A stretch of DNA of 64,000 nucleotides, taken from an uncultured Acidobacteriia bacterium (GTDB taxonomy: Bacteria > Acidobacteriota > Terriglobia > Bryobacterales > Bryobacteraceae). Made by a program: the position numbers and the translations under genes. The notes beneath the pieces were generated by a model, which saw only the letters and a program-made list of their open reading frames with translations, did no database searches and had not been told where the DNA came from. The stretch is from the NCBI GenBank assembly GCA_903851195.1, contig CAINNJ010000001.1, positions 62,001-126,000 of the forward strand, given 5' to 3'. Shown piece by piece: positions 1,019 through 62,576 of the stretch (the stretch's first letter is position 1; each line of letters starts with the position of its first letter).

Positions 1019-1071
1019 TGCGCCCGGTTGAGTGACCGGCGCGAGGGCGGGATAAAATAGTCGCAGCCTCC

Positions 1072-5431: not shown

Positions 5432-6317
5432 GCCGGTTGTTCTGTTCGCCCTGTGCGTTCCGGTGTTCGCGGAAACGGCGGTGGAGCGCGCCACGCGCGG
5501 TGAGTGCGCCGCGGTCACGGGAGAACTGGAGCGGCTGTTCGCGAAAAAGGACCGGCTGGCGGGCCTCGCGCTGGCCCAGTGCCGGATTGCCGCGAAGCAG
5601 TTCGACGCGGCCGGACCCGTGGTGGCGCAACTGGAGCGCGACTTTCCGTCCGATCCGGACGTTCTTTATGTCGCCGCCAACTACCACCTGAAAGCCTGGA
5701 ACGACGCGATTTACCGGATGTACCAGAAGGCGCCGGCCTCCTACCGGGTGGATCAGCTCTCGGCGGAAGTCTTTGAAACGCAGGGGAAGTTTACGGAGGC
5801 GATCGCGGAATACCGGAAGGCTCTGGGAAAAAATCCGAAGGCGATTAACCTGCATTACCGGCTGGGGCGGGCATTGCTGCAGCAATCGCACGATCCGGCG
5901 GCGCTTGAGCAGGCGCGCGAGGAGTTTGCGGCGGAACTGGCCCTGAATCCGGCGGACGCGGTGGCCGAGTTTCAGGTGGCGCAGATTCTGGCGACGCAGG
6001 GGAAGAAGGCGGATGCGGCCGGTCACTTCGAGCGCGCCGCGCAGTTGCGGCCGGATTTCCCGGAGGCGCTGGTTGCGGTGGCGAAAATCCGATCGGATTC
6101 CAAACGCTATGACGACGCGATCCAGCTGCTCGAGCGCGCCGTGAAACTGCAGCCGCGCGGCGAAATCGCGCATTACAACCTGATGATGGCGTACCGGAAC
6201 GCGGGTCGGGCGGCGGACGCGCAGCGCGAAAAAGCCGAACTGGACCGGTTGCAGAAGCCTCCCGAGGGCGAGTTTACGGATTTCCTGAAACGCCTCGGCG
6301 AGAAGCCGCCCCAATGA
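5418..6317 (+). CDS. Secreted TPR-repeat protein
   Basis: A 299-residue protein with an ATG start, a signal peptide (RVIKPVVLFALCVPVFAET) and several TPRs between about residues 40 and 285, such as TEAIAEYRKALGKNPKAINL and DDAIQLLERAVKLQPRGEIA. No enzyme motif is visible. It overlaps the preceding small ORF by 14 bases and the following CRTAC1 gene by four bases (ATGA). It therefore belongs to the same translationally coupled set as the genes from 1072 to 7924. TPRs suggest an extracytoplasmic scaffold working with the neighbouring FG-GAP/ASPIC-UnbV proteins; the partner is inferred from context only. Confidence 0.82.
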   Translation: MRVIKPVVLFALCVPVFAETAVERATRGECAAVTGELERLFAKKDRLAGLALAQCRIAAKQFDAAGPVVAQLERDFPSDPDVLYVAANYHLKAWNDAIYRMYQKAPASYRVDQLSAEVFETQGKFTEAIAEYRKALGKNPKAINLHYRLGRALLQQSHDPAALEQAREEFAAELALNPADAVAEFQVAQILATQGKKADAAGHFERAAQLRPDFPEALVAVAKIRSDSKRYDDAIQLLERAVKLQPRGEIAHYNLMMAYRNAGRAADAQREKAELDRLQKPPEGEFTDFLKRLGEKPPQ

Positions 6318-7924
6318 AACTGCTGCTGGCGGCCGCACTTCTCTGGCTGGCGGATCTTCATCCCGACTTTTACAACGCGGCGCGGGATGCCGGGCTGACG
6401 CAGGTGGTCCCGAACGGCGGTGTGACCTCGAAACAGTTCATCATCGAGACGACCGGCAGCGGCGTCGCGTATATCGACTACGATAACGACGGTCTGCCCG
6501 ATCTGTTCGTCGTTTCCGGGCCGGATGCGCCCAGCCGGATGTACCACAACGAGGGCGGGGGCAAGTTTCGCGAGGTGACCGAGGCGCTGGGGCTGACCCG
6601 CAAGGGCTGGGGTCAGGGAGTCTGCGCCGGCGATTTCGACAACGACGGCTATACCGACCTGTTCGTGACGTACTGGGGTCAGAACGCGCTGTACCACAAC
6701 GTGGGGGGGCGCCGTTTCGAGGACGTGACGGCGAAACTGCATCTGACGCAGGACCGGGTCCGCTACAACACGGGCTGCGCTTTTCTCGATTACGACAACG
6801 ACGGAAAACTCGATCTGTTCGTCTCGAATTACCTGAAGTTCGATTTCGCCACGACGCCGAAGCCGGGCGCGAATCCTTATTGCTTCTACCGGGGTATGGC
6901 GGTGAACTGCGGACCGCGGGGTTTGCCGTTCGACCGCAACCTGTTGTATCACAACGACGGCGCGGCCTTTCGGGACGTCTCCGACGAGAGTGGTATTTCC
7001 AAACCGGACGGGAACTATTCGCTGGGCGTGCTGACGGGCGACTTCAACGGAGACGGTCTCACGGATATCTATGTGGCCTGCGACCAGACGCCGTCCATTT
7101 TGTATATCAATCAGGGTAGCGGCAAATTCGTGGACGAGGCGCTGCTGCGGGGCACGGCGCTCGACGAGAACGGCAAGGCGCTTTCCGGCATGGGAGTGGC
7201 GGCCGCGGACTACAGCCACGACGGCCTGCCCTCGATCTTCCGCTCGAATTTTTCCGATGAGCTGGAGACGCTGTATCGCAACCGGGGGAAAGGCGAGTTC
7301 GAGGACGTAAGCGTCGAGGCCGGGCTGGGCCAGAACACGCGTTTTGTCGGGTGGGGCTGCGGCTTTTTCGATTTCGACAACGACGGATGGCCGGATCTGC
7401 TGCTGGTGAACGGGCATGCGTTTCCGGAGGTGGACCGGCTGAACATCGATATTCACTACCGCGAGCGGGCGATTCTGTATCGCAACGATCGGGGGCATTT
7501 CACGGATATTTCCGGGCAGGCGGGTGAGGGGATCGCGGAAATGCACTCGTCACGCGGGGCGGCGTTCGGGGACTACGACAACGACGGAGCGGTGGAAGTG
7601 CTGATCAACAACCAGGGGGAAGCCCCGTCTTTGCTGCGGCAGAGAACGAAACCGGCGAATCACTGGGTGATTCTGAAGCTGGAGGGCGTGACCTCCAACC
7701 GCAGCGCCATTGGGGCGCGCGTGCGGGTGACGGCGGGAGGTCTGGTGCAAACCGCGGAGGTCCGGAGCGGGGGCGGCTATCTCTCGCAAAGCGATTTGCG
7801 CTTGCATTTCGGGTTGGGATCGGCGAAGCGGGTGGAGAAGGTGGAGATTACCTGGCCGGGAGGTGGGCAGCAGGTCGAGACGAATCTGGCAACCGAAGGC
7901 GTGGTTCCGATTCGCCAGAGGTAA
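6314..7924 (+). CDS. Exported CRTAC1 family protein (FG-GAP repeats plus ASPIC/UnbV)
   Basis: A 536-residue protein with a short signal peptide (KLLLAAALLWLADLH). FG-GAP/VCBS-type propeller repeats fill residues about 40-430, each with an Asp-rich loop (DYDNDGLPDLFV, DFDNDGYTDLFV, DYDNDGKLDLFV, DFNGDGLTDIYV, DFDNDGWPDLLL). The ASPIC/UnbV domain follows near 450-520 (SNRSAIGARVRV, SGGGYLSQSDLRLHFGLG, VEITWPGG). It is the TPR-free counterpart of the gene at 2073-5213 and overlaps the upstream TPR gene by four bases. The family is related to vertebrate cartilage acidic protein 1; bacterial members are secreted or surface proteins of unproven function. It ends the operon, 43 bases before the SBBP gene. 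Confidence 0.88.
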   Translation: MKLLLAAALLWLADLHPDFYNAARDAGLTQVVPNGGVTSKQFIIETTGSGVAYIDYDNDGLPDLFVVSGPDAPSRMYHNEGGGKFREVTEALGLTRKGWGQGVCAGDFDNDGYTDLFVTYWGQNALYHNVGGRRFEDVTAKLHLTQDRVRYNTGCAFLDYDNDGKLDLFVSNYLKFDFATTPKPGANPYCFYRGMAVNCGPRGLPFDRNLLYHNDGAAFRDVSDESGISKPDGNYSLGVLTGDFNGDGLTDIYVACDQTPSILYINQGSGKFVDEALLRGTALDENGKALSGMGVAAADYSHDGLPSIFRSNFSDELETLYRNRGKGEFEDVSVEAGLGQNTRFVGWGCGFFDFDNDGWPDLLLVNGHAFPEVDRLNIDIHYRERAILYRNDRGHFTDISGQAGEGIAEMHSSRGAAFGDYDNDGAVEVLINNQGEAPSLLRQRTKPANHWVILKLEGVTSNRSAIGARVRVTAGGLVQTAEVRSGGGYLSQSDLRLHFGLGSAKRVEKVEITWPGGGQQVETNLATEGVVPIRQR

Positions 7925-7967
7925 AGATTTCCCCGCCTTCCGCCGATCAACAGGCAAAGGAAAAGAT

Positions 7968-10667
7968 ATGCAATCTTTTGCCGGCCTTTGCGGGCTCGTC
8001 TTTGCCGTGTCTTTGTCATACGCAGCTCTTCCGGAATCGCCCCAGATGCCGTTTTCTTTTGTCGAAAACAGGGGCCAGGCGGCGGCGGCCGTACGGTACA
8101 TCGGAAACGGTCCGCAGTTTCGGGCCTGGTTTCGCGACGATGGTGTTACGTTGCAACAGGGCAGTGCGACCGTGCAGGTGCGGTTTGAAAGGGGCTCGCG
8201 AAATCCGCGGATCGAAGCGGCGTCTCCGTTCGGCGCGGTCACCAACTACATCCTTGGCAACGATCCGGCCAAGTGGAGAACCGGTCTGCGTATGTTCGGG
8301 CTGCTTCGCTACCAGGGAGTTTGGCCAGGGATTGAAGTGCGTTTCCGGGCGGAACAATCGCGCGCGAAGGCGGAGTATTTGGTGGCTCCGGGCGCCTCGG
8401 TCGACGAGATCCGGCTCCGGTTCGACGGCGACCCGCAGATCCAGCCGGATGGCAGCCTCGTCGTGAAAGGTCAGTCCGGCGAGTTCCGGGAAGACAGGCC
8501 GGTCCTGTTCCAGCAGTCGGGTGAGGAAAAAACGCCGGTCGAAGGCGCGTTCCGGAAGTTTCCCGACGGCGCCATCGGCTTCACGGCTGGCGCATATGAC
8601 CGGCACAGGCCCCTTACGGTCGATCCCACTTTGCTGTTCAGCGGCTATTTTGGCGGCTACTCGCAGACCACGATCACGAGCCTGGCGGTGAATTCCTCCT
8701 ATAGTGTGATCGCCGCCGGTTGGACAGTCGGGACGGATTTTTCGACGGCTCGTTCGCTATTTCCGGTCGAAGCGGGCGGTATCGACGGTTTCATTGCCGC
8801 GTTTAGTCCGGCCGGAGGAGCGCTGCTGTATTGCACGTACCTCGGCGGCTCGGGCGACGACCGCGTGTTCGGAGTCGCGGTCGACAGCGCCAACAACACC
8901 TATGTAACGGGCTGGACGCAGTCCGGCAATTTTCCGACGCTGAATCCGTTCCAGAGCAAACTGAAGGGGACACGGGACGCGTTTATCGCCAAGCTGAATG
9001 CTTCCGGAACCGCGCTGATCTACAGCACCTACCTGGGAGGCACGGGGGTCGATTCGGGAAACGCGATCGTGCTCGATTCGGGTAACGCGCCAATCATTGC
9101 GGGAGACACGACATCGAGCGCCCTGCCGGTCACAACCGGCGCATTCCAGGTGAAACCGGGCGGCAACCAGGACGCTTTCGTGGCCAAACTGAACACGGCC
9201 GGAACCGGGCTGGCATTCCTCACCTACTTTGGCGGGAGCGCCGCGGAACACGCCACTTCGGTCAAAACGGACGCCACGAATGCGGTGTATTTTGTCGGCT
9301 CTACCTGGTCGACTAACCTCCCGATCCTGAATGCTGCCCAGCCGTATAACGCCGGCGGACAGGACGGATTCCTCACCAAACTGTCGGCGGACGGAAGGTC
9401 TTTAGGATTCAGCACGTATGTGGGCGGTTCGGGTGGCTGGGCAGGCGCGCCCGAGCAGGTCAACAGCGTTTTTGTGCGGAGCAACGGAACGGCGTGGATC
9501 GGAGGGGTAACCAGTTCCCGAGACTTTCCAATCACCTCGATCACGTCCCAGAGCACGTATGGCGGGGGGCAGACGGACGGGTTCTTCTGCCGCTATCTGG
9601 CAAACGGCGCTTTGGCGCGCTCGTCCTATTTCGGAGGCTCACTCGACGACTCGGTCACGGGAGTCACGACGGACTATTATGGAACCGGCTATATCACGGG
9701 GTACACCACGTCGAATGACCTGCCGGTTCTGAATCCGGTTCAGAGCGCGAACGGGGGGGGCATGGACGCCTTTGTGGCCAAGCTGATCTCCGGCCAGTTG
9801 TACTATTCCACTTATCTTGGCGGCGGGGGAAACGATGCGGCGAACGCGATCGCGATCGATTCCCTGAACAATATCGTGATCGGCGGAACCACCGGTTCGG
9901 GGAATTTCCCGGTAACAGGCGCCCTTGCCACGTCGGGAGGTCCGGTCTCGGGATTCGTGTCCAAACTGGTGGCCAGCTTCCGGCTCGCCGCCGTGAATCC
10001 GCCGAATTTCTACCTCGACGTCTGGCATATTGCCGGGTATAACGGCATCCTGAATACCACTACCTTCGGAGCCTCCGGAGATATACCTGTGTCGGGTGAC
10101 TGGGATGGCTCCGGCGCGAAACGCCTCGGCATCTTTCGCAAGGGAACCTGGATTCTGGATATCAACGGGAACGGCGTCATTGATGCCCCCGACAAAACCG
10201 TGCAGTTCGGCCAGGCAGGTGATCTGCCGGTAGTCGGGGACTGGAACGGAACCGGGAAATTAAAGCTGGGTCTGTTCCGGCAGGGAACTTTTATTTTGGA
10301 TTATAGCGGACATCTGTCCGGTACAGCCACAGGGGAGGCTGACCAGATTGTTGCTTTTGGCTTACCCGGCGACGTACCGGTCTCCAGTGACTGGAACCAG
10401 ACCGGAACGAGCAAGATCGGCGTGTTTCGGAATGGACAATGGATTGTGGACTACGCGGGAACCCACACAGCATCCCAAATTTACAGCTTCGGTCAGGCAG
10501 GCGATATCCCGGTTATCGGAGACTGGGACGGCTCCGGGCTTCAGAAAATCGGAGTTTACCGGCAGGGTGTCTGGATACTCGACTACGGGGGTAACAATTC
10601 CCTGACCGGAGGAGCGCCTCTGTATATTGCCTTTGGAGGCGCTGGCTACATACCCCTCGCTTGGTGA
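7968..10667 (+). CDS. Large secreted SBBP-repeat protein with C-terminal propeller-like repeats (copy 1)
   Basis: The frame is open from 7863, but ATG 7968 has a purine-rich ribosome site (AAAGGAAAAG) and opens directly into a signal peptide (QSFAGLCGLVFAVSLSYA), giving 899 residues. Residues about 25-210 carry the FSFVENRGQ ... RYIGNG segment typical of the N-terminal domain of these proteins. Residues about 220-670 are SBBP-type beta-propeller repeats (LYCTYLGGSGDDRVFGVAVD, IYSTYLGGTG, AFVAKLN). The last about 220 residues hold roughly five repeats of the form GD-PV-GDW-G-G ... LG-FR-G-WILD. There are no catalytic motifs; a surface or extracellular binding role is inferred. A close paralog lies in opposite orientation at 18309-21056. 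Confidence 0.85.
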   Translation: MQSFAGLCGLVFAVSLSYAALPESPQMPFSFVENRGQAAAAVRYIGNGPQFRAWFRDDGVTLQQGSATVQVRFERGSRNPRIEAASPFGAVTNYILGNDPAKWRTGLRMFGLLRYQGVWPGIEVRFRAEQSRAKAEYLVAPGASVDEIRLRFDGDPQIQPDGSLVVKGQSGEFREDRPVLFQQSGEEKTPVEGAFRKFPDGAIGFTAGAYDRHRPLTVDPTLLFSGYFGGYSQTTITSLAVNSSYSVIAAGWTVGTDFSTARSLFPVEAGGIDGFIAAFSPAGGALLYCTYLGGSGDDRVFGVAVDSANNTYVTGWTQSGNFPTLNPFQSKLKGTRDAFIAKLNASGTALIYSTYLGGTGVDSGNAIVLDSGNAPIIAGDTTSSALPVTTGAFQVKPGGNQDAFVAKLNTAGTGLAFLTYFGGSAAEHATSVKTDATNAVYFVGSTWSTNLPILNAAQPYNAGGQDGFLTKLSADGRSLGFSTYVGGSGGWAGAPEQVNSVFVRSNGTAWIGGVTSSRDFPITSITSQSTYGGGQTDGFFCRYLANGALARSSYFGGSLDDSVTGVTTDYYGTGYITGYTTSNDLPVLNPVQSANGGGMDAFVAKLISGQLYYSTYLGGGGNDAANAIAIDSLNNIVIGGTTGSGNFPVTGALATSGGPVSGFVSKLVASFRLAAVNPPNFYLDVWHIAGYNGILNTTTFGASGDIPVSGDWDGSGAKRLGIFRKGTWILDINGNGVIDAPDKTVQFGQAGDLPVVGDWNGTGKLKLGLFRQGTFILDYSGHLSGTATGEADQIVAFGLPGDVPVSSDWNQTGTSKIGVFRNGQWIVDYAGTHTASQIYSFGQAGDIPVIGDWDGSGLQKIGVYRQGVWILDYGGNNSLTGGAPLYIAFGGAGYIPLAW

Positions 10668-10717
10668 AACTCGTTGTTCACGGCAAGGACTGCCTGCAGC
10701 CGAACGGACGAGGCTGT

Positions 10718-10873
10718 TTAGGAACCGCCCTTAATGAATGCGTCGTTGCTTTCGCTGCTGTCAGCACTTTTAGCGGTCCTGCTGATCACCGTATCTTCGA
10801 TCATAGGCACTTGCCAGGGTTTGCGAGCGGCAGAAGTTACGCCAGCGAGGTTTTGATCTGTTTGGTTTGACAT
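10718..10873 (-). CDS. Putative lasso peptide precursor (A gene)
   Basis: A 51-residue peptide on the minus strand. A GAGGAG Shine-Dalgarno sits 11 bases before ATG 10873, which favours this start over an in-frame one 54 bases upstream. The leader holds W20-x-x-P23-x-I25 (KPWQVPMIEDTV), a match to the Y-x-x-P-x-L motif that B1 proteins bind. The C-terminus SADSSESNDAFIKGGS gives a plausible core: Ser36 as residue 1 and Asp44 as residue 9 for a nine-residue ring, with Ala-Phe following as in paeninodin (recalled core pattern ...PDAF...). Thr33 lies at -3 rather than the usual -2, so Lys35-Glu41 (ring of 7) or Ala37-Asp44 (ring of 8) remain possible. The terminal Ser fits the neighbouring HprK-like kinase. 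The gene is divergent from the processing genes. Confidence 0.72.
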   Translation of the reverse strand: MSNQTDQNLAGVTSAARKPWQVPMIEDTVISRTAKSADSSESNDAFIKGGS

Positions 10874-10917
10874 TTCTATTTCAACTCCTCTGTGTTTTTT
10901 GAACCAATCGTGTAGTG

Positions 10918-10946
10918 ATAGTACCATAGTATTTCAGATGTCTCAA
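10918..10946 (-). promoter_or_regulatory. Sigma-70-like promoter of the lasso precursor gene
   Basis: On the minus strand, TTGAGA (10941-10946) and TACTAT (10918-10923) are separated by exactly 17 bases. A start near 10911 would leave a leader of about 38 bases containing the GAGGAG ribosome site. On the plus strand a weaker pair, TTGAAC (10899-10904) and TACCAT (10922-10927), also with 17 bases between, overlaps it and could drive the kinase operon divergently. Confidence 0.5.
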
Positions 10947-11939
10947 TGGCCGCGTTCGGGAACGGGAGATCGGCTGACGGAGAATCAAGCAGATCGTTGT
11001 TGCCCGCGTTTTTCCTATAGAATGGCGGGATTATGCGTTCTGTCCGATCTGGAGTTGACAGGTGCGATTCCATTTCATGGCTCGCCGTCGGAAGATTTTG
11101 TTCGGGTTCGCCAATGCGAGGTACCGGAGCACCTGCCGGCACCGTCCTTACAGGGTCCGAACTGGGAGCTCGATGCCACGAGGCTGCTGCTGCGAGTCCC
11201 AAGCTTAGGCCGTTTCCTGGTGAGTGACGGACGAATGCTGGATGTGGAGCCGGCACCCGATTCCAGTCTCGAAGAGATGCTCCCGTTTGTTCTCGGCAGT
11301 GGTATCGGAGCAATCCTGTACCAGCGCGGGGGGATGGTACTCCACGCGGCTTCCGTTGCGGTCAACGGGCAGGCGTACGCCTTTTGCGGACCGAGCGGCG
11401 CCGGGAAGTCGACATTGGCCGCCGCCCTGTGCGGAGCGGGCTGCGACTTTGTCAGCGATGACGTTCTGGCTGTCTCTCTGGATAGGGATGGTCGGCCCGT
11501 AATCTGGCCGGATGGCCGACAATTGAAATTGTTCAAAACCAGCATTGCCAGCCTCGGACTGGAAGGCGCCCGCGGAAAGGAAGTTCGGTCCGGCCTCGGC
11601 AAACATTACGTGGAGTCACCGGGAGGCTGTGTGTCGGAACCACTGCCGCTCCGCTCCGTGTTTGTGCTGCGCGACGCCCGCCCTCCGTACACGCCCGGCC
11701 TCGAACGATTATCCCCCGTGGATGCGGCGCAGGCACTGACGAATGAGAGCTACCGGCCACGGCTGGCCTCCGCGCTGACTTCCCCCGCGCGCCGCGTTGG
11801 GCTGACCGGCTCAATACTCCGCCATACCTCGGTTTTTTATCTCACACGGACTCGCAACCTCGATCTGCTGGGGGAGACGGCGGCTGGTTTATGCGAAATC
11901 TGGCGGGATGCGCAGGCTGGCCCTCCGCACCCATGCTGA
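10938..11939 (+). CDS. HprK-like kinase of the lasso cluster
   Basis: About 333 residues. The P-loop GPSGAGKST lies at about residues 151-159 and is followed by FVSDDVLAV, the acidic motif typical of HPr kinase/phosphorylase-related enzymes. Members in lasso clusters phosphorylate the side chain of the precursor's C-terminal Ser (established for the paeninodin-type enzymes). The precursor here ends in Ser, supporting that role by inference. Start choice: the family has a Tyr four residues before the conserved Gly-Leu (here YRMAGL), which lies upstream of ATG 11022, so ATG 10938 is preferred; neither has a strong ribosome site. It is the first gene of the plus-strand operon; its stop overlaps the sulfotransferase start by seven bases. 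Confidence 0.82.
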   Translation: MSQWPRSGTGDRLTENQADRCCPRFSYRMAGLCVLSDLELTGAIPFHGSPSEDFVRVRQCEVPEHLPAPSLQGPNWELDATRLLLRVPSLGRFLVSDGRMLDVEPAPDSSLEEMLPFVLGSGIGAILYQRGGMVLHAASVAVNGQAYAFCGPSGAGKSTLAAALCGAGCDFVSDDVLAVSLDRDGRPVIWPDGRQLKLFKTSIASLGLEGARGKEVRSGLGKHYVESPGGCVSEPLPLRSVFVLRDARPPYTPGLERLSPVDAAQALTNESYRPRLASALTSPARRVGLTGSILRHTSVFYLTRTRNLDLLGETAAGLCEIWRDAQAGPPHPC

Positions 11940-12805
11940 TCCTGCCGGCAGGTGTGGTGTGGCTGGCCTCCTACCCCCGATCCGGCAATACCTGGATTCG
12001 CATTCTACTTTCCAATCTTCTGGAAGGAAAAGGTGTACCCGGCGATATCAACAATTTTGCCCTTAAAGGAGAGTCCGCCAACAGCGTTCAGGCGTTCGAA
12101 GAACTGACACTGCTGGATTCAGACCTCTTGAAGACTCGGGAAATTGAGGCTCTCCGTCCCACAGTCCATGATGCGGAGTCGAAACACTCAGGCGAGGCGA
12201 AGCTGCTGAAGACACATGACGCCTATACGTATGTTAAAGGCGGCACACCCCTTCTGGGCCGAGCCGCACGGGCGGCCATTTACCTGGTACGGGATCCGCG
12301 GGATGTGGCAGTCTCGTTTGCAGCCCATTTCGGCATCGGTATCGATGCCGCGATTCGGCGGATGAACGACCAGGACGATACGATCGGCGGTTTTTTGCAG
12401 ACGAGGCAGCGCCTGACGGGTTGGACCGGCCACGTCACCAGCTGGCTCGATCAGTTGGATCTGCCGGTTCATGTGATTCGTTACGAGGATCTTCATGCCG
12501 ACACCTCTGCTGTTTTCGCCGCCGCGCTGGATTTCCTGGGTGCGAACTATACTCGCCATCAACTGGAACAAGCCGTCGTCCACTCCGGTTTTGCGGAGTT
12601 GCGGCGTCAGGAGCGCGAGAATGGATTCTGTGAGAGCCTTCCGGCGGAAACTCTGTTTTTCCGTCGGGGCGAGACAGGCAGCTGGCGCCAGGAGTTAACG
12701 GCGACCCAAATCGGAGTGATTGAAAGCGATCACGCGATCACAATGAAAAGACTCGGCTATCTGCGGGCAGCGGAGATGCCGCAATCGGAAGGATATCAAC
12801 GATGA
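11933..12805 (+). CDS. Sulfotransferase within the lasso cluster
   Basis: A 290-residue PAPS-dependent sulfotransferase-family protein. The 5'-phosphosulfate-binding loop SYPRSGNTW is at residues 13-21 and the 3'-phosphate-binding segment LVRDPRDVAVS around 118-128. ATG 11933 is preferred over ATG 11891 because it puts the PSB loop at the usual distance from the N-terminus and overlaps the kinase stop by only seven bases. The stop overlaps the PqqD-like gene (ATGA). Family members transfer sulfonate from PAPS to hydroxyls or amines. Its place between the kinase and B1 genes suggests it tailors the lasso peptide or a carrier of it; the predicted core has Ser and Lys but no Tyr, so the acceptor is uncertain. 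Confidence 0.85.
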   Translation: MLILPAGVVWLASYPRSGNTWIRILLSNLLEGKGVPGDINNFALKGESANSVQAFEELTLLDSDLLKTREIEALRPTVHDAESKHSGEAKLLKTHDAYTYVKGGTPLLGRAARAAIYLVRDPRDVAVSFAAHFGIGIDAAIRRMNDQDDTIGGFLQTRQRLTGWTGHVTSWLDQLDLPVHVIRYEDLHADTSAVFAAALDFLGANYTRHQLEQAVVHSGFAELRRQERENGFCESLPAETLFFRRGETGSWRQELTATQIGVIESDHAITMKRLGYLRAAEMPQSEGYQR

Positions 12806-13071
12806 GCGAAACGTTTCGGCGTGCCGGCGAGGTCTTCACCGCACCGGTCGACGACATGCTGCTGATGATGAGCGTCGACGCGGGCAAATACTTCGGCCTG
12901 AAAGGGGCCGGACCACGCATCTGGGAACTTCTGGAAAACCCGACGACTATAGATGCCCTGGTGGAGAGACTGACGGCCGAATATGAGGTTTCTCCGGACA
13001 TGTGCGCCGAGCAGGTATCCGCTTTCCTCGGCAGCCTTCGCCAACGAAAACTTCTGGTGGATGCGGGCTAG
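12802..13071 (+). CDS. PqqD-like leader-binding protein (lasso B1)
   Basis: An 89-residue PqqD/RRE-fold protein: FRRAGEVFTAPVDDMLLMM, then SVDAGKYFGLKGAGPRIWELL, then a helical tail (ALVERLTAEYEVSPDMCAEQ). In lasso pathways a discrete B1 protein binds the precursor leader and presents it to the B2 protease. Split B1/B2 is typical outside enterobacterial systems. It overlaps the sulfotransferase stop by four bases and precedes the cyclase by 45 bases. The domain assignment is firm; partner specificity for the W-x-x-P-x-I leader motif is inferred. Confidence 0.88.
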   Translation: MSETFRRAGEVFTAPVDDMLLMMSVDAGKYFGLKGAGPRIWELLENPTTIDALVERLTAEYEVSPDMCAEQVSAFLGSLRQRKLLVDAG

Positions 13072-13116
13072 CCCGCGATCCGGCGACCAGAAGGGCGCGG
13101 GGGAACGGCACGAGCG

Positions 13117-15093
13117 ATGCGCCTGATCTGTGGTTATGTGCGGCTGGACGGGGGGGCCGCGGAAGCAAAAACTCTCGTTTCCATGACGGTCGCGTTGACA
13201 AGACCAGGAACTCCGTGCTGCGTAAGGCAGCGAATCGACGGCCCGGCGGCTTTGGCGGTACTGGACTTCGGGGAGGCTCGGGCCGCGGCCAACCCACCCG
13301 GCGCGACGGCGAATCTGTTCCGCGGCCCCGATGGCACATGGCTGGCGGCGGACCTTCGACTCGACCGCCCGGCCGAATTGGCCGCCGTCCTTGGGCTCCC
13401 CGCTGCAACATCTCCCGAAAGTCTGGCCCTTGCCGCCTGGGAACGCTGGGGAGAAGACCTGCCCGACCGCCTCGACGGCGATTTCGCGATCGCGGCCTGG
13501 CAGGCTGGACCGGGGCGTCTGGTGTGCGCGCGCGATTTCATGGGGGTGAGACCTTTTTGCTACACGCATCTGCCCGGCCGGTTCTTCGCCTTCGCGTCGC
13601 TGCCGCGCGGCCTCCATGCATCCGGTGTTGTCTCCGCGCAACCGAATCCCGTGGCGATCGGGCGGCTGCTGGTGGAGATGCACTTCAAGCGCGAGGCCAC
13701 GGGCTTTGAAAACATTCAGTGGCTGCCCCCGGGCCACACGCTGACTCTCACGACGGCGGGGCTCCGGCTTCATCGGGCCTGGCGGCCAGAGGTCGGCCAG
13801 GTTGGAAGTTGGCGCGGAACCGCGGGGGAAGCGGCGGCGAACTTGCGGACACTGCTGCACGAGGCCGTCTCCTGCCGCCTCCCCGCCCGGGGGCCGGTAG
13901 CCGCGCATCTCAGCGGAGGGCTGGATTCGTCCTGTATCGCCGTCATCGCGGCCCGGCAAATGCGGATGAGAGGCGGGAAACTGCATGCCTACTCGCAACT
14001 GGCGAAATCGCTGCCAGGTGTCGTAATCCGGGACGAAACGGAGTACGTCAAAGCCGTTCTGGAACAGGAACCCGATATCGAATGGTCTCCCGCGTATGCG
14101 ACTTTGGCGGACAATGCCGGGGCGACCGATTCCGATTTACCGATCTTCGGCCCCGTGGGCCAGTCCGACGACCGCATCTGCGAGCAGGTCGCGGCCGCCG
14201 GGTGCGAACTGCTTCTTTCCGGAGCGGGGGGCGACGAGGGCGCGACCTATAACGGAACGGGACTCTATGTCACGGCCCTGCGCGGGGGTCACTGGCAGCA
14301 CGTACACCAGGAACTGCACGCCCGAGCCGTGCGACAGCGCCGCCCATTTCGGCAGGTGGCGGCAACCAGTCTTTTGGGACCTCTGATTCCGGACTGGCTT
14401 CGGGAATTGCGTCAACGCCTGCGGGGCCGGCCCGCGGATTACGACCGGCGGCGCTCTCTCGATTTTCTGACGCCATCCCTGGCCGCAAGCGTCAGACAGT
14501 CGCTCGACCCGGTCAGCAAAGCGGGCAGCCGGCCCGATGACCGCATCAGAATGCTGACCGCGGGCTATCTTGCCGATCGCGGGAATCGTTTGGCGATTCT
14601 CGGAGCGCGACACGGGATTGCGTTCACGTTTCCTTTGCTGGACCGGAGGATTATCGACTTCACGCTGTCGCTGCCGGTCACGACGTTTCTTCACAACGGG
14701 TTTTCCCGGCAGCCGTTTCGGGACAGCATGACAGGGATCCTGCCGGACCTGATCCGCGATCGCGAAACCAAGTTTGTGCCTTTTCCGGATCTGCCGATTC
14801 ACCTTGCCGGGGCCAAGCCAGGACTTCTGAGCGAGATCGACGCGCTGCGCGCCTGCTTGCCCGTGACGGCTTTGTTCGACCTGGACGCCATCGCCACAGC
14901 TCTGCGCGCGGCGCCGGAGGGAGAGGATGCGGTGCTCGTGTCGCAGGCGTTCAACGCGTCCGGATATCCGGCGCGCCCGCGGACCGCCGCCTTCAGGAGA
15001 GCCATGCACGGGCTGCGCGCGCTGGAAGCGGCTCGGCATTTCGCTCGCGGACACGCGGGATCACGCGAAAAACCGGCGCCGGAATTTTCGTGA
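13117..15093 (+). CDS. Asparagine synthetase-like lasso cyclase (C protein)
   Basis: A 658-residue asparagine-synthetase homologue. The N-terminal half is a class II glutamine amidotransferase-like fold (FDGDFAIAAW region, residues about 60-200). The only early Cys is at position 5, not position 2, so glutaminase activity is doubtful, as is usual for lasso cyclases. The C-terminal half has the ATP-pyrophosphatase signature SGGLDSS at 266-272 and LLLSGAGGDEG near 370. Lasso cyclases adenylate the ring Asp/Glu side chain, and the free N-terminus of the core then attacks it. The gene has a purine-rich site (GGGGAACGG) before ATG 13117. Its stop overlaps the GTG of the next gene by four bases. 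It could be taken for AsnB alone, but B1 and B2 on either side decide the role. Confidence 0.9.
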   Translation: MRLICGYVRLDGGAAEAKTLVSMTVALTRPGTPCCVRQRIDGPAALAVLDFGEARAAANPPGATANLFRGPDGTWLAADLRLDRPAELAAVLGLPAATSPESLALAAWERWGEDLPDRLDGDFAIAAWQAGPGRLVCARDFMGVRPFCYTHLPGRFFAFASLPRGLHASGVVSAQPNPVAIGRLLVEMHFKREATGFENIQWLPPGHTLTLTTAGLRLHRAWRPEVGQVGSWRGTAGEAAANLRTLLHEAVSCRLPARGPVAAHLSGGLDSSCIAVIAARQMRMRGGKLHAYSQLAKSLPGVVIRDETEYVKAVLEQEPDIEWSPAYATLADNAGATDSDLPIFGPVGQSDDRICEQVAAAGCELLLSGAGGDEGATYNGTGLYVTALRGGHWQHVHQELHARAVRQRRPFRQVAATSLLGPLIPDWLRELRQRLRGRPADYDRRRSLDFLTPSLAASVRQSLDPVSKAGSRPDDRIRMLTAGYLADRGNRLAILGARHGIAFTFPLLDRRIIDFTLSLPVTTFLHNGFSRQPFRDSMTGILPDLIRDRETKFVPFPDLPIHLAGAKPGLLSEIDALRACLPVTALFDLDAIATALRAAPEGEDAVLVSQAFNASGYPARPRTAAFRRAMHGLRALEAARHFARGHAGSREKPAPEFS

Positions 15094-16454
15094 GGGATCG
15101 GCCAGCGCGGGCGCGGCCACACACCCCGGGTGACCTGTTGCCGCAAACCAAAAGCCCGACACCAGCGGAAGGGATGGCTGAGCCGCGGAAGACGGAAGGC
15201 GCGCGAACGTTCGCCCGGCTCTGGCGCCGCATGCCACTGGATGGCCTCGGCTTCGGCAGCCCGGAGGACGAGAACGCGGCCAATCTGCGGCAGTGGGCAG
15301 CGGAGCGCTTTTGGTTGCGGGCGCCATGGTGGAGCCGTCGGGTTCTGCGTTCGCTTTCCCTTGCCGCGTGGGGCGTCGCGGCAACCGGGCGAACCGTCCG
15401 CTTTTCCCGGGTGAACTCTCTGTCGCTGCCGTCAACCCTGCAACTCCTGGGAGACTGCCTCAGAAGCGGCGCGCAACCAAACGAAGCGCACATCTGGCGG
15501 CATTTCTTTCAGCCACCAGGCTTCCATCCGTTGGCCGGCCGAAGCGCAGGCGCCGTTCTGTCCCGACTCGGAACCAGAACGGAACACTTGCTGCTTGCCG
15601 ACAAACTGGCGACAGCGCGGTTGCTGCGGCAGGCGAAGCTGTCCGTGGCCGAGGAGAAGTTGACGATCCCCGTGGGCGGGTGCGTGGACCCCTCGGCTTC
15701 CGTCTGGTGCGACGCCGGCAAACTTTTTGTCAAACCGCGCCACGGCTCGGCATCCCGGGGATCGATGCCGATCGATGTGATCAGGCGGGGTTCGTACCGA
15801 ATGAACGGCGGCCCTCCCTGCGACACGGCAGTGCTGCAAGGCAGACTCACGGCTCTCGCGAAAGCCGACACGCTGCTGGTTCAGAGCCGCCTTGAAGCGG
15901 GTGAAGAGACGGCCGATCTTGCTTCGGGAGGAGACGCGCCGGTGCTGCGCCTGACGACGGCGCGAGAGCCTGGCGGGGAGCCTTTTCTGCATTCCGGCCT
16001 GCTGGCGATCCGCGTCCCCGGCGAGAATGCTCGCCATTTCATTCGGGGACAGATCTTCGCGCCCGTCGATCCGGAGTCCGGACAGATGAAACCGGGCATC
16101 TGGTTTCTTCGCCCCGGAGAACGCTTTTCGAGACTGCCGTGGAATCGGGTGGCGATCGAGGGCCGATTCCTTCCGGGATACGCTTCAGCCGTGTCCATGG
16201 CAATCCGCGCCATGACGCTGGTGCCCGGACTTGCACTGGTGAACTGGGATCTGATTCTGAGTTCCGAAGGGCCGGTTATTCTGGAGGGGAACACGTGTGG
16301 AGACTGGATTCTGACGAATCTTTCCGCCGCGGACCGCGGGATGACGTGTCCGCTGTTTCCTCTGCTCTGGCGATGGGCTGAAAATTCGGCACTATTGGAA
16401 AAAGGACGCAACCGGCGGGAGAACACAGCCGTGCGCCTCGGTGAAACGCCATGA
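15090..16454 (+). CDS. ATP-grasp domain protein in the lasso cluster
   Basis: A 454-residue protein if GTG 15090 is used (GTGA overlap with the cyclase stop); ATG 15174 with an upstream GGAAGGG is an alternative. Features suggesting an ATP-grasp fold of the sugar-transfer-associated type are: DKLATARLL near 170, KLFVKPRHGSASRG near 215 (probable ATP-binding Lys), and LALVNWDLILSSEGPVILEGN near 395-415, where Asp/Glu/Asn would bind metal. ATP-grasp enzymes form amide or ester bonds via acyl-phosphates. Such an enzyme is not part of the minimal lasso set; its place between cyclase and B2 with overlaps on both sides argues for a role in modifying the peptide. Substrate unknown. Confidence 0.7.
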   Translation: MRDRPARARPHTPGDLLPQTKSPTPAEGMAEPRKTEGARTFARLWRRMPLDGLGFGSPEDENAANLRQWAAERFWLRAPWWSRRVLRSLSLAAWGVAATGRTVRFSRVNSLSLPSTLQLLGDCLRSGAQPNEAHIWRHFFQPPGFHPLAGRSAGAVLSRLGTRTEHLLLADKLATARLLRQAKLSVAEEKLTIPVGGCVDPSASVWCDAGKLFVKPRHGSASRGSMPIDVIRRGSYRMNGGPPCDTAVLQGRLTALAKADTLLVQSRLEAGEETADLASGGDAPVLRLTTAREPGGEPFLHSGLLAIRVPGENARHFIRGQIFAPVDPESGQMKPGIWFLRPGERFSRLPWNRVAIEGRFLPGYASAVSMAIRAMTLVPGLALVNWDLILSSEGPVILEGNTCGDWILTNLSAADRGMTCPLFPLLWRWAENSALLEKGRNRRENTAVRLGETP

Positions 16455-16951
16455 AACGCGGAGCACGATGGTGGAAAACCGTTGCAGGCATCGTGCTGAA
16501 AGCCGAAACGGTTATTTCGCTCGCAGTGGGCTGGATCTTCGTCTTTGTCATGCCTTTTCGCATGACGGTCCAGTTGCTGGGGAGAACCACCGCCGTGCCG
16601 GCGGAAGGCACAGCGGGCAGCGCGGATCGAGCGGCAAACCGTCCCGCGCCGCCGCCCGGAGTGTGGCGGGTTACCCATGCCGTCTGCCGGGTCGCTCCCC
16701 GTCTCCCGTGGTCCTGCACTTGTCTGGTCAACGCGTTGGGTGCGCATCTGATGTTGCGGCGGCGCGGCATCCGTTCTGTGGTCCGTTTGGGAGCGCGGAT
16801 CGAAGACGGCAAACTGCAGGCACACGCGTGGCTGCTTGCGGGAGGCGAAACGGTGCTCGGAGGCAAAATCGACCAGGATTTCGCGCCGCTGGCGCAGATT
16901 GAGCGGAGTTTAGCTCCGGAAATACCGCCAAAACAATCGGAAAGAGGATAA
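16451..16951 (+). CDS. Lasso leader peptidase (transglutaminase-like B2 protein)
   Basis: A 166-residue protein of the transglutaminase-like lasso B2 family. After a hydrophobic N-terminus (ETVISLAVGWIFVFVMPF, probably membrane-associated) come the motif SCTCLVNALGAHLMLRRRGI, with Cys91 the likely nucleophile, and AHAWL, with His125; a downstream Asp (GGKIDQDF) would complete the triad. B2 removes the leader before macrolactam formation. It overlaps the ATP-grasp stop by four bases (ATGA) and is the last gene of the operon; no ABC exporter or isopeptidase follows. Family assignment is confident from the Cys/His spacing and the RRRG segment. Confidence 0.9.
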   Translation: MKRGARWWKTVAGIVLKAETVISLAVGWIFVFVMPFRMTVQLLGRTTAVPAEGTAGSADRAANRPAPPPGVWRVTHAVCRVAPRLPWSCTCLVNALGAHLMLRRRGIRSVVRLGARIEDGKLQAHAWLLAGGETVLGGKIDQDFAPLAQIERSLAPEIPPKQSERG

Positions 16952-17013
16952 ACCAAAGGAGCGAAGTACCAGAACTTCGGTCGCGAATCCGGAAAAAATT
17001 TTGTCTGGAAACT

Positions 17014-17038
17014 AACTGTAGTGTAGTACACTAAAGTT
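17014..17038. promoter_or_regulatory. Dyad-symmetric operator-like site upstream of PEP-CTERM gene 1
   Basis: Half-sites AACTGTAGTGT and ACACTAAAGTT are separated by AGT and match as inverted repeats at 10 of 11 positions; the inner 15 bases TAGTGTAGTACACTA are perfectly symmetric around the spacer. It lies 46 bases before the start of the PEP-CTERM gene, where a dimeric regulator would act. No regulator gene is adjacent. Confidence 0.5.
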
Positions 17039-17083
17039 CACATGATCGAATCCAATAGGGTTCGACGCGGAGGAGCTTTCTTC

Positions 17084-18118
17084 ATGTTTCGTCCTATCAA
17101 TTTCTCCCTACTTTTCCTGGCTTGCGCGTTGACGATGAGCGCAACGCAAATTCAACTCACCGGCACGGCAACGAACGTGGCGGGATATGGATTGAGCAGT
17201 ACTTATGTTCAGATAAATAGATGCGCGGGCGCTCAGCTTAACAGCGCCACCTGTGCAACCAGTTCCACCACGGGAGTTCCCGGCAACTATCTGGTTTCCC
17301 TCTTTGCTGACGCATCGGGAATCACGCCGCCGGATGCGGCGGGTCAAAAAGCGTCCGGGTTCACCGGTTTGGCTGGAACACCCATTGTTTTTGACATGCT
17401 GAATGCGCCGTTATCGGCCCCGTGGTACGTCGGCAACACTGTGACGCTAGGTCAGGTGGACAGCAATTTCATCAAATCCGGGCTTAAAGCGAGCCAAAGT
17501 ACCGCAACCATTGCGGTTGGTCTCAATGAAATCTCCTCGGTTTACACGATGCTGAACGATTTTGCGGGGTATAACAATGGCGATAACATCACGGTGTCGT
17601 TTTGCTTCTCTGCCACGTCGAACGGAACCTGCACTTCGGATCAGTTGACGAGCGTCACGCTGAAAAGCGGTGTGGAAGTCCGGGCGGCGGTGATCTGCGA
17701 TTCCACCCAGGGTGCCACGGGTTGCCCGACCAGCGGAACGTATGGACAGACGCTCGCTGCTTCCAGCACGGTGAATGGTGTTACGGTGAACACTGCCAAC
17801 GTGTACTCCCAAACATATACCTCGATTCCCTCGACTCTGCCTGATAATAGTGCCAACGGACCGTGGGCGGGTTCGGCGGGCGGGAAAGTCGTTCTGGACG
17901 CCCAGCAATTTGTTTTTACTCCCACTACCTCATTCCTTTCGTACATTCAGGTTGTGGACAATGTGACAAATTTTACTTCGGCACCCGCGAACCCCGGTTC
18001 CAGTCACTTTGCGCTGTCGGCCGTCACCGTTGAACAGACCCCTGAACCGGCTTCTTTCGGGCTGCTGTTCGCCGGAATGACTGCGGTCGGCTTTCTTCGC
18101 CTGCGCCGCCGGAGCTAA
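17084..18118 (+). CDS. PEP-CTERM sorting-domain protein 1
   Basis: A 344-residue exported protein. ATG 17084 is chosen over ATG 17042 because a GGAGGAG ribosome site precedes it and a clean signal peptide follows (FRPINFSLLFLACALTMSA). The body is Ser/Thr/Gly-rich with a few Cys and no recognised domain. The C-terminus is a classical PEP-CTERM tripartite tail: PEPASFGLLFAGMTAVGFL then RLRRRS. Such proteins are processed by an exosortase, usually for extracellular matrix; no exosortase is in the window. It follows the lasso operon by 132 bases and has its own operator-like dyad, so it is probably a separate unit that ends at the strong hairpin at 18145-18177. Confidence 0.85.
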   Translation: MFRPINFSLLFLACALTMSATQIQLTGTATNVAGYGLSSTYVQINRCAGAQLNSATCATSSTTGVPGNYLVSLFADASGITPPDAAGQKASGFTGLAGTPIVFDMLNAPLSAPWYVGNTVTLGQVDSNFIKSGLKASQSTATIAVGLNEISSVYTMLNDFAGYNNGDNITVSFCFSATSNGTCTSDQLTSVTLKSGVEVRAAVICDSTQGATGCPTSGTYGQTLAASSTVNGVTVNTANVYSQTYTSIPSTLPDNSANGPWAGSAGGKVVLDAQQFVFTPTTSFLSYIQVVDNVTNFTSAPANPGSSHFALSAVTVEQTPEPASFGLLFAGMTAVGFLRLRRRS

Positions 18119-18308: not shown

Positions 18309-21056
18309 TCAGAAAACCAGTGGCTTGTAAGAGGGCCCGCCGAAGCTCACGTAGAGTTCGTAGAGACCGCCGTTCAGCATAGTGTTGCCCCCGGGGCTGT
18401 TCAGAATCCAGAGTCCCTGACGGTAGACGCCGATCTGATTCGCAATACCCGTGCCGATCCAGTCGCCCACCACGGGAATGTCGCCCGCCTGCCCATACCT
18501 GTAGGTCGTGGTGGCCGAGCGGGTTCCCAGAAAGTCAACGAGCCACTGCCCGGCGCGAAAAACGCCGGCCTTAGTGGTGCCCGAGCCATTCCAGTCCGCG
18601 ACCACCGGCAGATCCCCCGGCAGACCGAATGGGAAAGTTGCGTCGGCCACCCCCGTAGACGTACCCGACAGGTGGCCGCTGAGATCGAGGATAAAAACAC
18701 CCTGGCGGAACAGTCCGAGTTTCACGCGACCCGTGCCATCCCAGTCGCCGAGCACCGGGACATCACCCGGTTGCCCGAACTGGATAGTGCGGTCCCCGGC
18801 GTCGAGCAGACTGTTCCCGTTGGTATCGAGGATCCAGAGGCCGTTTCGGAAAACTCCGAGCCGTTTGACGCCCGAGCCGTCCCAGTCCCCCATCAGAGGG
18901 ACATCGCCCGTCGCCCCAAAAGACGCCGTGCCGAGGGTGGTATTGGGGCCGTTGTACCCCGTGTTGTGCCAGACATCGAAGCGAAATGCGGGCATATTCG
19001 CCACCGCCAGGGTGTAATTCGCCGCCATTCTGGCGAAATACGAGGTGAGCGGAGTGCCCTGGCCGGCGCCGACGCTTCCCTGCACGGGGAGCTTTCGGTA
19101 AGAGGTCTCCACGGCGAACGCAACGTTGGACAGGGAATCGATCGCGACGGCCGTGCCGGAATCGTTTCCCGGCCCGCCGAAGTACCCGGAGCAGAGGAGA
19201 CGCGAAAAGCCGATATTGGCCACAAACGCGTCAAGACCGCCGCCAAGTACGGCCTGCGTCGGGTTTTGCGACGGGAAGTCCGGCGAACCCGTATAGCCGG
19301 TGATCCAGAACAGGTCGGTGTGGACATCGGCCACCATCCCCGATATCGAGTCGTCGCCCGAACCACCGACGTACATGGACGAAATCACCGCGCCTGTGTT
19401 CTGGTCCACACGGGTGAGGAAACCGTCCGTCTGCCCGCCCCCGAACGAGGTCTGCAGAGTGCCGGAGGTGACGGGAAAGTTGCGGGAACTGGTCACTCCC
19501 GCGAGAACCGGATTGCCGTCGCGACCCAGGACAACCGCGTTGACTCCCTCCGGGGAGCCCGGAATGCCTCCCGAACCGCCCAGATAGGTGCTGAAGATCA
19601 GAGAAGATGCGTCCGAGGCTAGTTTCGCCACGAACCCGTCCTGGCCGCCGCCGGTATGGGGCTGAAAAGGCCGGACCACGGGAAAGTCCGGAGAACTGGT
19701 GGAACCGGCGATAAAGATCCGGCCCCCGGAATCCAGAGCCAGTGCCGCGCCGTGTTCCGTCCCGCTGCCGCCGCAATAGGTCAGCCAGGAGAGGCTGCCG
19801 GCCGCGGAAAGTTTGGCAACGAACGCGTCCTGCGTTCCGCCCGGCAGGGGTTGCACGACGCCGGCGGTTACCGGCAGATCCCGCGAAGTGGTGTCGCCGA
19901 TGAGGAGAACCGAATTGTCGCGGTTCAGGACGATGGCGTTGCCCGTGTCCGCTCCTGTTCCTCCCAGGTATGTGCTGTAAACGAAAGCCGTTCCCGTCCG
20001 GTTGAGTTTCGCGACAAAAGCATCGCGTGCGCCTTTTAGCCTGTTCTGGAGGCCGCCGGCCACGGGAAAGTCCACAGAAGAGGTCCAGCCGGTTACATAC
20101 GTATTGTTGGCGGAATCGACAGCCAGTCCGAAAGCGCGGTCGTCGCCGGATCCGCCCAGATAGGTGCAGAAAAGCAATTTCCCGCCATCGGGGCTGAAAC
20201 CGGCAACAAACGCATCCACGCCGCCGGCGCTGCGGGATCTGACGCCACCGGTTGCGGGGAGATCGGTTCCGACCGTCCAGCCGGCTACGATCGTGTTGAA
20301 CCAGGAGTTCACGGCGATGGCCGTGATGGTGGACTGAGCGCTTCCTCCGAAATAGCCGCTGAAGAGGATGTTTGGGTCGATGACGAGCGGTCTCGTTCTG
20401 TCATACACCGGAACACTGAACCCGATACAGCCGTCTTCGCGCCGGATGAAAGCTCCCCGCACGGGAACCCGTCTGGCGCCCTCGTTCTGGTAGATCAAAG
20501 GCGCACTTTCCCGAAACTCTCCGGACCCGTTGGATACCACCAGACTCCCGTCCGGTTCAATCGAGGGCCTGCCCTTGAAGCGCAGCCGGATTTCCGCCGG
20601 CGAGGCTCCCGGCGCGATCAAGTATTCGGCTTTGGTTCCCGCCTGATCGGCTTTGAACCGGATCTCGATTCCCGGCCATACTCTGGTGTACGTCAGACTC
20701 CCGTAAAGCGGTAAACCACTTCGCCAGGCGGCGGATTCCCGGCCTCGCAGGTAAGTGGCGGTGGCTCCCAGAGGGTCGCCCGTCCGGAGTACCGGCTTTC
20801 GGTTCCCACCAGCAAAACGCAGGCGCGTGACGGCCTCGCCCTGCTGGAAAACAATGCCGTCGTCGCGGAACCAGGCTTTGAACCTCGCGCCGGTACCGAT
20901 GTAACGCACCCGCGCATCGGCCTGTCCGCGGTTTTCAACGAAGGAGAAGGGAAGCTGGATCGAGTGTCCAGGCTCTTTCGACGCGAGGCACGGACTTTCC
21001 TGCCAGAGCAGGCAGAGCAGCAGCAAACGGACCGGGACGTTCAGATTGAGATTCAC
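18309..21056 (-). CDS. Large secreted SBBP-repeat protein (copy 2, inverted)
   Basis: A 915-residue paralog of the protein at 7968-10667 with the same domain order: signal peptide (VPVRLLLLCLLWQESPCLA), the FSFVENRGQADARVRYIGTG domain, SBBP-type propeller repeats (LLFCTYLGGSGDDRAFGLAV, FVYSTYLGGTGADTGNAIVL), and about five C-terminal repeats with GDW-G-G ... LGVFR-G-WILD. Similarity holds along the full length, including the DVWHN/I-GYNG junction before the last block, which points to duplication. No catalytic site is seen; surface display or extracellular binding is inferred. The gene converges on PEP-CTERM gene 1 across the hairpin at 18145-18177. Together the two copies bracket the lasso region as an inverted pair. 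Confidence 0.85.
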   Translation of the reverse strand: MNLNLNVPVRLLLLCLLWQESPCLASKEPGHSIQLPFSFVENRGQADARVRYIGTGARFKAWFRDDGIVFQQGEAVTRLRFAGGNRKPVLRTGDPLGATATYLRGRESAAWRSGLPLYGSLTYTRVWPGIEIRFKADQAGTKAEYLIAPGASPAEIRLRFKGRPSIEPDGSLVVSNGSGEFRESAPLIYQNEGARRVPVRGAFIRREDGCIGFSVPVYDRTRPLVIDPNILFSGYFGGSAQSTITAIAVNSWFNTIVAGWTVGTDLPATGGVRSRSAGGVDAFVAGFSPDGGKLLFCTYLGGSGDDRAFGLAVDSANNTYVTGWTSSVDFPVAGGLQNRLKGARDAFVAKLNRTGTAFVYSTYLGGTGADTGNAIVLNRDNSVLLIGDTTSRDLPVTAGVVQPLPGGTQDAFVAKLSAAGSLSWLTYCGGSGTEHGAALALDSGGRIFIAGSTSSPDFPVVRPFQPHTGGGQDGFVAKLASDASSLIFSTYLGGSGGIPGSPEGVNAVVLGRDGNPVLAGVTSSRNFPVTSGTLQTSFGGGQTDGFLTRVDQNTGAVISSMYVGGSGDDSISGMVADVHTDLFWITGYTGSPDFPSQNPTQAVLGGGLDAFVANIGFSRLLCSGYFGGPGNDSGTAVAIDSLSNVAFAVETSYRKLPVQGSVGAGQGTPLTSYFARMAANYTLAVANMPAFRFDVWHNTGYNGPNTTLGTASFGATGDVPLMGDWDGSGVKRLGVFRNGLWILDTNGNSLLDAGDRTIQFGQPGDVPVLGDWDGTGRVKLGLFRQGVFILDLSGHLSGTSTGVADATFPFGLPGDLPVVADWNGSGTTKAGVFRAGQWLVDFLGTRSATTTYRYGQAGDIPVVGDWIGTGIANQIGVYRQGLWILNSPGGNTMLNGGLYELYVSFGGPSYKPLVF

Positions 21057-62573: not shown

Positions 62574-62576
62574 CCC

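Follow-up and report, generated by a model that had tools for sequence, protein, structure and literature searches.

An acidobacterial lasso-peptide gene cluster with a kinase, a sulfotransferase and an ATP-grasp protein as probable tailoring enzymes

In this study, we analysed a 64,000-nt stretch of acidobacterial DNA (hereafter the window) and found that positions 10718–16951 hold a complete set of lasso-peptide genes together with genes for an HprK-like kinase, a 3′-phosphoadenosine 5′-phosphosulfate (PAPS)-type sulfotransferase (ST) and an ATP-grasp protein (AG), all in one operon. The minimal lasso set, consisting of the precursor, the leader-binding protein B1, the leader peptidase B2 and the cyclase, was located in full with the help of Pfam and NCBIfam models and motifs (Table 1), as the original prediction had claimed. 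The further claim that the kinase, ST and AG belong to the lasso cluster is borne out by their place in the same operon and by a conserved cassette in related genomes. We consider it likely that the locus is a lasso-peptide cluster with three dedicated tailoring enzymes, working in the pathway proposed below. The source genome (G000) is 7.7 Mb in size and 99.66% complete; G, L and C followed by a number are codes for genomes, loci and contigs, respectively.

On the plus strand the genes run in the order kinase, ST, B1, cyclase, AG and B2, and the precursor gene is divergent on the minus strand. The genes by which lasso clusters are recognised, those for a B2 peptidase, a B1 protein (RiPP recognition element, RRE) and an asparagine-synthetase-like cyclase, are all present. 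B2 scored above the cut-off of NF033537 (70.4 bits, cut-off 33) and matched PF13471 (80.3 bits). B1 matched PF05402 with 65.5 bits, its best NCBIfam match being NF033536 (69.5 bits, under the cut-off of 80), while the cyclase, in which SGGLDSS is present, matched PF00733 (98.2 bits) plus GATase_7, with NF033535 as its best NCBIfam match (239 bits, under the cut-off of 525). The kinase retains the His, Lys and Asp-Asp residues (LHAA, GPSGAGKS, SDD) and matched the HprK-related model TIGR04355 with an E value of 2.8e-12 and 46.4 bits, the cut-off of 200 not being reached. ST scored 90.7 bits with PF00685 (cut-off 22), and the proteins of solved structure closest to it include aryl and glycopeptide (TEG12) sulfotransferases (best E 5.2e-12). 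Its YPRSGNTW and RDPRD are presumably both PAPS motifs, and KTH is also kept. AG scored 66.2 bits with PF14397 (cut-off 31.4).

It had also been predicted that all plus-strand genes except the cyclase gene start in an overlap. This was found for B1 and B2, whose start codons lie within ATGA overlaps, and for ST, whose longest open reading frame (ORF) begins at 11891 but for which the relatives favour ATG 11933, with an overlap of 7 nt. It also holds for AG if translation begins at GTG 15090 within a GTGA overlap rather than at ATG 15174, the start being uncertain. It does not hold for the kinase: its longest ORF begins at TTG 10899, but the likely start, ATG 10938 or 11022, is positioned beyond the start of the divergent precursor gene. 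The cyclase start is preceded by a 45-nt gap and is indeed the exception that had been named.

Table 1. Lasso cluster genes and the adjoining downstream gene in the window
Feature	Coordinates	Strand	Basis
Lasso precursor, 51 aa	10718..10873	-	ORF, AGAGGAG upstream, relatives' motif and position
HprK-like lasso kinase	10938..11939	+	TIGR04355; motifs LHAA, GPSGAGKS, SDD
PAPS-type sulfotransferase (ST)	11933..12805	+	PF00685; motifs YPRSGNTW, KTH, RDPRD
B1, PqqD-like leader-binding protein	12802..13071	+	PF05402
Lasso cyclase, asparagine-synthetase-like	13117..15093	+	PF00733, GATase_7, SGGLDSS, cyclase tree
ATP-grasp ligase (AG), conserved N-terminal region	15090..16454	+	PF14397 (ATPgrasp_ST)
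B2 leader peptidase, transglutaminase-like	16451..16951	+	PF13471, NF033537, Cys and HAW motif
PEP-CTERM secreted protein; cluster membership uncertain	17042..18118	+	PF07589

A search for lasso B2 in 257 genomes of the order located it in 55 genomes at 69 places, of which 67 (all but that of the window itself and one in G631 that scored under the cut-off) were compared with the window after marking homologues of its six enzymes; many of these stretches end at contig ends. Over the resulting 68 places, the kinase occurs in 38 and the cyclase in 45, ST in six (the window, L066, L069, L072, L074 and L083) and AG in four (the window, L066, L074 and L107). L066 (G416) and L074/L146 (G417), from two genomes of the same genus as the source, carry kinase, ST, B1, cyclase and AG in the window's order, with the precursor and B2 on the opposite strand from this cassette. 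In G401, the kinase, ST, B1 and the cyclase start lie on the L069 contig and a cyclase plus AG on the L107 contig, and the two probably form one cluster. These three genomes provide the lasso-linked AG relatives. Among the 19 genomes of the genus, ST gave 10 matches in seven (the window's included), nine of which adjoin lasso genes; the tenth, in G406, is weak and partial (30% identity). A search for AG in the 257 order genomes gave matches in 12, strong only in G000, G401, G416 and G417, and all four strong copies adjoin a lasso cyclase. Linkage of ST and AG to lasso genes in relatives, by which the original prediction proposed to be judged, was thus found.

In a tree of 42 cyclase rows, the cyclases of the window, L066 and L074 formed one clade with 100/100 support, and the cyclase of the ST-bearing L083 (G406) was its sister, likewise with 100/100. 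The window proteins are 46% (kinase), 51–56% (ST), 44–47% (B1), 53–54% (cyclase) and 51–53% (AG) identical to those of the relatives, among which the same five are 73–85% identical. Among the relatives, dN/dS (the ratio of nonsynonymous to synonymous substitution rates) was 0.13–0.17 for the kinase, 0.19–0.20 for ST, 0.10–0.12 for B1, 0.12 for the cyclase (one pair), 0.14–0.17 for AG and 0.15–0.25 for B2, as obtained by a simple counting method; dS was close to 1 or higher in many pairs, and between the window and the relatives it was saturated or almost saturated. Given their parallel divergence and low dN/dS, the five genes travel together and are maintained. These results establish the genes, their motifs, their conserved linkage and the selection on them.

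The best AG segments are 59–62% identical in the three relatives, and K172, K215, D387, E399 and N401 are invariant across the four AG sequences; we take these Lys, Asp, Glu and Asn residues to be the positions typical of ATP-grasp ligases. A scan of the contigs of 84,980 species with the AG alignment, which needs exact short peptide patterns and so reaches close relatives only, returned just the same three relatives. Of 396 genomes across the phylum, seven gave a match, which was strong for the source genome alone, and plasmids gave one partial match covering 19% of the query. The best match among PDB sequences had an E value of only 0.067, and the AlphaFold2 model built from a four-row alignment had a mean pLDDT (predicted local distance difference test score) of 40.6.

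The precursor has a leader of 34 residues, with W20-Q-V-P23-M-I25, T33 and A34. By the Thr(−2) rule, the predicted core is KSADSSESNDAFIKGGS, 17 residues from K35 to S51, in which Lys1 is predicted to close a seven-residue ring on Glu7. Xanthomonins reportedly have seven-residue rings, and a paper on caulonodins is said to bear the words 'unprecedented N-terminal residues' in its title. WQVPMI is a YxxPxL-like motif in which Trp and Ile replace Tyr and Leu, and the spacing of this W motif is two residues shorter than standard. Glu7 supplies the Asp/Glu acceptor looked for at core positions 7–9, and Ser51 the C-terminal Ser of the paeninodin type. In the parts consulted of the papers cited here, Thr at −2 is the usual mark of a lasso leader (PMC10368454), and the first core residues reported are Gly, Cys, Ser and Ala as examples, Asn in 2025 (PMC12670498) and Leu in citrulassins (PMC12971885). 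Lys is absent from this incomplete list of published first residues, which is a customary criterion applied here to a predicted register. Mentions of 'Lys1' in passages of PMC4960549 and PMC13352647 proved to be Lys17 and were set aside.

No Pfam or NCBIfam model matched the precursor at E<=1, so that its identification, which agrees with the original prediction, rests on position, motif and relatives. Related genomes have similar small ORFs, most of which are likewise divergent and next to the kinase. The wider ST clade provides eight precursors: besides the window's own, there are two in G416 (the first divergent from the kinase, the other past B2), one each in G417 and G401 (L069), again divergent from the kinase, a tandem pair on G406 contig C466 (L144), likewise divergent from the kinase, and one in L083 of G406 that is divergent from the cyclase. 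The pattern W..P.I-x7,8-T-x-K-x5-E...S-stop fits six of the eight, the window's included. Neither the reversed sequences nor 10 triplet-block shuffles, all from the same 1.17 Mb, gave a match to it; these controls speak for its specificity only, the motif having been derived from these same sequences. A chance placement of the 51-residue ORF was rejected on the strength of the relatives' ORFs and these empty controls. All eight precursors end in Ser, six having been found without requiring it and the two of L144 by searches that required it. The paired precursors of G416 and G406 are largely alike up to the motif Lys and diverge more after it, as would be expected near a leader–core border. 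The precursors of the more distant ST clusters L072, L137 and L145 are of another sort, and Lys1 is therefore not a rule for all ST clusters.

In the pathway that we propose, B1 would bind the W..P.I leader motif, the kinase would put a phosphate on the C-terminal Ser51 of the linear precursor, B2 would cleave after Thr33-Ala34, and the cyclase would couple the α-amine of Lys1 to the side chain of Glu7, giving a seven-residue ring with a short polar tail. We infer these four steps from the known chemistry of the families. ST would move sulfate from PAPS to a core Ser or Thr hydroxyl, a Lys amine being less likely, and AG would activate a carboxylate as an acyl phosphate and join it to an amine or hydroxyl as an amide or ester, so that the peptide would most likely gain an amino acid or small acid at a conserved Lys or the C-terminus. 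Lys1, the ring size, the sulfation site and the substrate of AG are conjectural. A phosphate on Ser51 is expected because Ser is the last residue of the precursor and the kinase retains its His, Lys and Asp-Asp; according to passages of PMC8498205 and PMC9266682, paeninodin-type lasso kinases target the C-terminal Ser of the linear precursor, and the importance of the conserved His-Lys-Asp-Asp has been shown by mutation. A sulfate on a core hydroxyl and an amide or ester made by AG are expected because ST and AG keep the motifs and residues of their families. A product combining a seven-residue ring on an N-terminal Lys, a C-terminal phosphate, a sulfate and an AG-conjugated acid would be a new lasso subclass and the first native ATP-grasp lasso pathway, a proposal that is unlikely to hold in full.

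Other explanations were weighed for the core, for AG and for the cluster as a whole. The core register may be shifted, with the residue after Thr (Ala, Gln, His, Phe or Cys) as the first, Lys at position 2 and Glu8 as the acceptor. Eight-residue lasso rings are common, and the W-motif spacing is one to two residues shorter than in the −17 register. Ala is moreover an observed first residue (PMC12670498, in part), but Thr at −2 is given as the usual rule in a passage of PMC10368454, and the residue after Thr varies among the precursors whereas Lys comes next in six of eight; we hold the shift to be rather doubtful. A relic cluster without a product is highly improbable. No exporter was seen among the nearby ORFs scanned and a second cyclase gene in G401 appears split across two frames, but the window ORFs are all intact with active-site motifs, and dN/dS among the relatives is low.

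For AG, an action off the peptide, in which it makes a small building block or works on a sugar or nucleotide attached elsewhere, would suit the Pfam name of PF14397, which points to sugar transfer ('Sugar-transfer associated ATP-grasp', a term for which no literature match was found). Among the eight genomes with weaker AG matches, the neighbourhoods in G415, G411 and G610 show no marked lasso gene; the PF14397 proteins of G415 and G411 are encoded on short contigs of 7.5 and 5.0 kb, respectively, and that of G415 adjoins a 6-phosphogluconate dehydrogenase. The four close members of the subfamily, however, all stand beside a lasso cyclase, the AG gene of the window overlaps or nearly abuts the cyclase gene, and Pfam found no glycosyltransferase among the seven cluster genes, and we regard such a role as unlikely. 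AG might instead make a second, graspetide-like crosslink within the core, between Lys, Ser or Thr and Asp or Glu, yielding a lasso–graspetide hybrid. The cores encoded in clusters with AG hold many S/T/K and D/E residues, AG carries ATP-grasp residues, and chimeric lasso–graspetide products have been engineered, so that the chemistry is compatible (PMC13003496, in part). Yet AG belongs to PF14397 and its RimK-like similarity is weak, the only such model to match being TIGR02291 (E 0.0043, far under cut-off), and the Asp and Ser positions differ between the cores; this crosslink seems quite unlikely.

Several points weigh against the cluster with three dedicated tailoring enzymes and its proposed pathway. 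NF033535 (cyclase), NF033536 (B1) and the HprK-related models all stayed under their cut-offs. The window's B2 is only 28–32% identical to the relatives' B2 and stands at a different place in the cluster; B2 therefore does not travel with the cassette and has evolved either separately or faster. G406, which has several ST clusters, gave no AG match; one of these clusters, L144, breaks off inside the cyclase at a contig end and so does not show that AG is absent there. In two of the eight precursors, those of L069 and L083, the K-x5-E spacing is missing and the first residue would be Val or Arg, with Glu at position 9, so that neither the size of the ring nor its first residue is settled. Bulky residues that could hold the thread are few in the core, and the phosphate site is uncertain, since the lasso kinase BsfK targets Ser3 instead (PMC10368454, in part). 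Among the selected ORFs of the window scanned with Pfam between 5.4 and 29.4 kb there was no exporter gene, and no product is known for the cluster.

Directly 3′ of B2 lies a gene for a PEP-CTERM protein whose family is almost confined to the genus. At E<=1e-12 its family has 16 matches, one each in 16 of the 19 genus genomes, a count that leaves out 15 weaker matches (E 1.6e-7 to 9.4e-6), and two matches elsewhere in the 257 order genomes. Lasso-type genes stand beside 11 of the 16 copies, 8 of these 11 having been found because of that position. Three of the other eight copies (G402, G412 and G404) are by lasso-type genes, that of G404 adjoining a cyclase-like gene with a candidate precursor; the G415 copy has an in-frame stop and no lasso gene alongside, and four lie at contig ends with no marked lasso gene on the visible side. 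The AlphaFold2 model (11-row alignment) had a mean pLDDT of 53.2, and Foldseek against the PDB gave no match at E<=0.001 (best 0.052). When window 6314–18118 was compared with L138 of G412 (3–9147), the upstream FG-GAP and SBBP proteins were 83% and 64% identical and the downstream PEP-CTERM protein 49%, with different lasso genes between these shared flanking genes. It looks as if the lasso cassette was exchanged at a fixed site, and because the window and G412 share this site, part of the link between PEP-CTERM and lasso genes is shared position. A common chromosomal site fits the window/G412 pair and also the site of L069, L142 and L146. Beyond these, none of the non-lasso groups that recur in at least three of the 17 loci, out of 30 gene groups listed, pointed to such a site; apart from lasso enzymes and the PEP-CTERM family, the remainder consists of one nucleotidyltransferase group and ORFs without a label, some of which are clearly antisense.

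The surroundings and the other loci gave further observations. The window cluster is flanked by two SBBP/DUF7948 paralogues with 57% identity, which are in opposite orientation (7863–10667, plus strand; 18309–21056, minus strand), and at 50749–64000 (+) there are three long ORFs whose opening residues, read by eye, resemble polyketide or fatty-acid synthases. The source genome has a second lasso cluster, L062 on contig C10, with kinase, B1, B2, cyclase and an ABC transporter. L146 (G417 contig C82) is composite, with two cyclases, two kinases, two B1 and one B2 marked and two kinds of precursor, one with T(−2) before Lys and the other with I(−2)L before GG. At 3891–4553 (+) of L138, a gene for a 2-oxoglutarate (2OG)-Fe(II) oxygenase, possibly a lasso hydroxylase, lies beside B1, cyclase and kinase. 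PF14907 nucleotidyltransferases occur in the lasso-kinase loci L072 (11306–12520), L129 (12673–13773) and L130 (8260–9333), as in pseudomycoidin-type clusters.

The original prediction further suggested that the combination of phosphorylation, sulfonation and an ATP-grasp step, for which it knew of no characterised lasso pathway, may give a new type of modified lasso peptide. The first part of this combination had a precedent: according to passages of the review PMC8498205, Zhu et al. (2016) noted a putative sulfotransferase gene in new lasso clusters of Firmicutes, and the combination of kinase and ST near lasso genes is thus already known in Firmicutes. AG is the new element. The only ATP-grasp passage seen in that review concerns microviridin, a term search of the main text of a 2026 review (PMC13352647) gave no mention of sulfotransferase or ATP-grasp, and a native lasso pathway that includes an ATP-grasp step was not found in the literature, represented mostly by titles and abstract openings, which leaves its absence unproven. 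If the proposed pathway is true, ATP-driven conjugation, and possibly sulfation, joins the small set of lasso tailoring reactions, and a natural lasso whose ring begins with an unusual residue bears on the substrate tolerance of lasso cyclases. The conserved cassette and the eight natural precursors of the wider clade provide a directly testable system.

The known systems closest to the cluster each share part of its features. It has in common with the paeninodin type (PadeK, ThcoK and SyanK) an HprK-like kinase with His, Lys and Asp-Asp, a C-terminal Ser and split B1/B2, but differs in its additional ST and AG, its predicted Lys1, the lack of an exporter seen nearby and its acidobacterial origin. 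With the Firmicutes clusters, which belong to a group in which kinases are frequent, it shares a putative sulfotransferase beside lasso genes, whereas in the passages of PMC8498205 describing those clusters no ATP-grasp is mentioned and sulfation is not characterised. Pseudomycoidin, made with a kinase and the nucleotidyltransferase PsmN, is likewise phosphorylated and then further decorated, but the window cluster is without a PF14907 gene by Pfam. The BsfK cluster of Bradymonas, as far as described in the parts of PMC10368454 consulted, resembles it in having split B1/B2 and a lasso kinase outside Firmicutes, and differs in its Ser3 target and leader Ile(−2), in place of the C-terminal Ser and Thr(−2) of the window. 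Like the graspetide pathways, finally, the cluster includes an ATP-grasp enzyme within a peptide pathway; unlike them, its ring would be expected from a lasso protease and cyclase, and AG is of another Pfam family.

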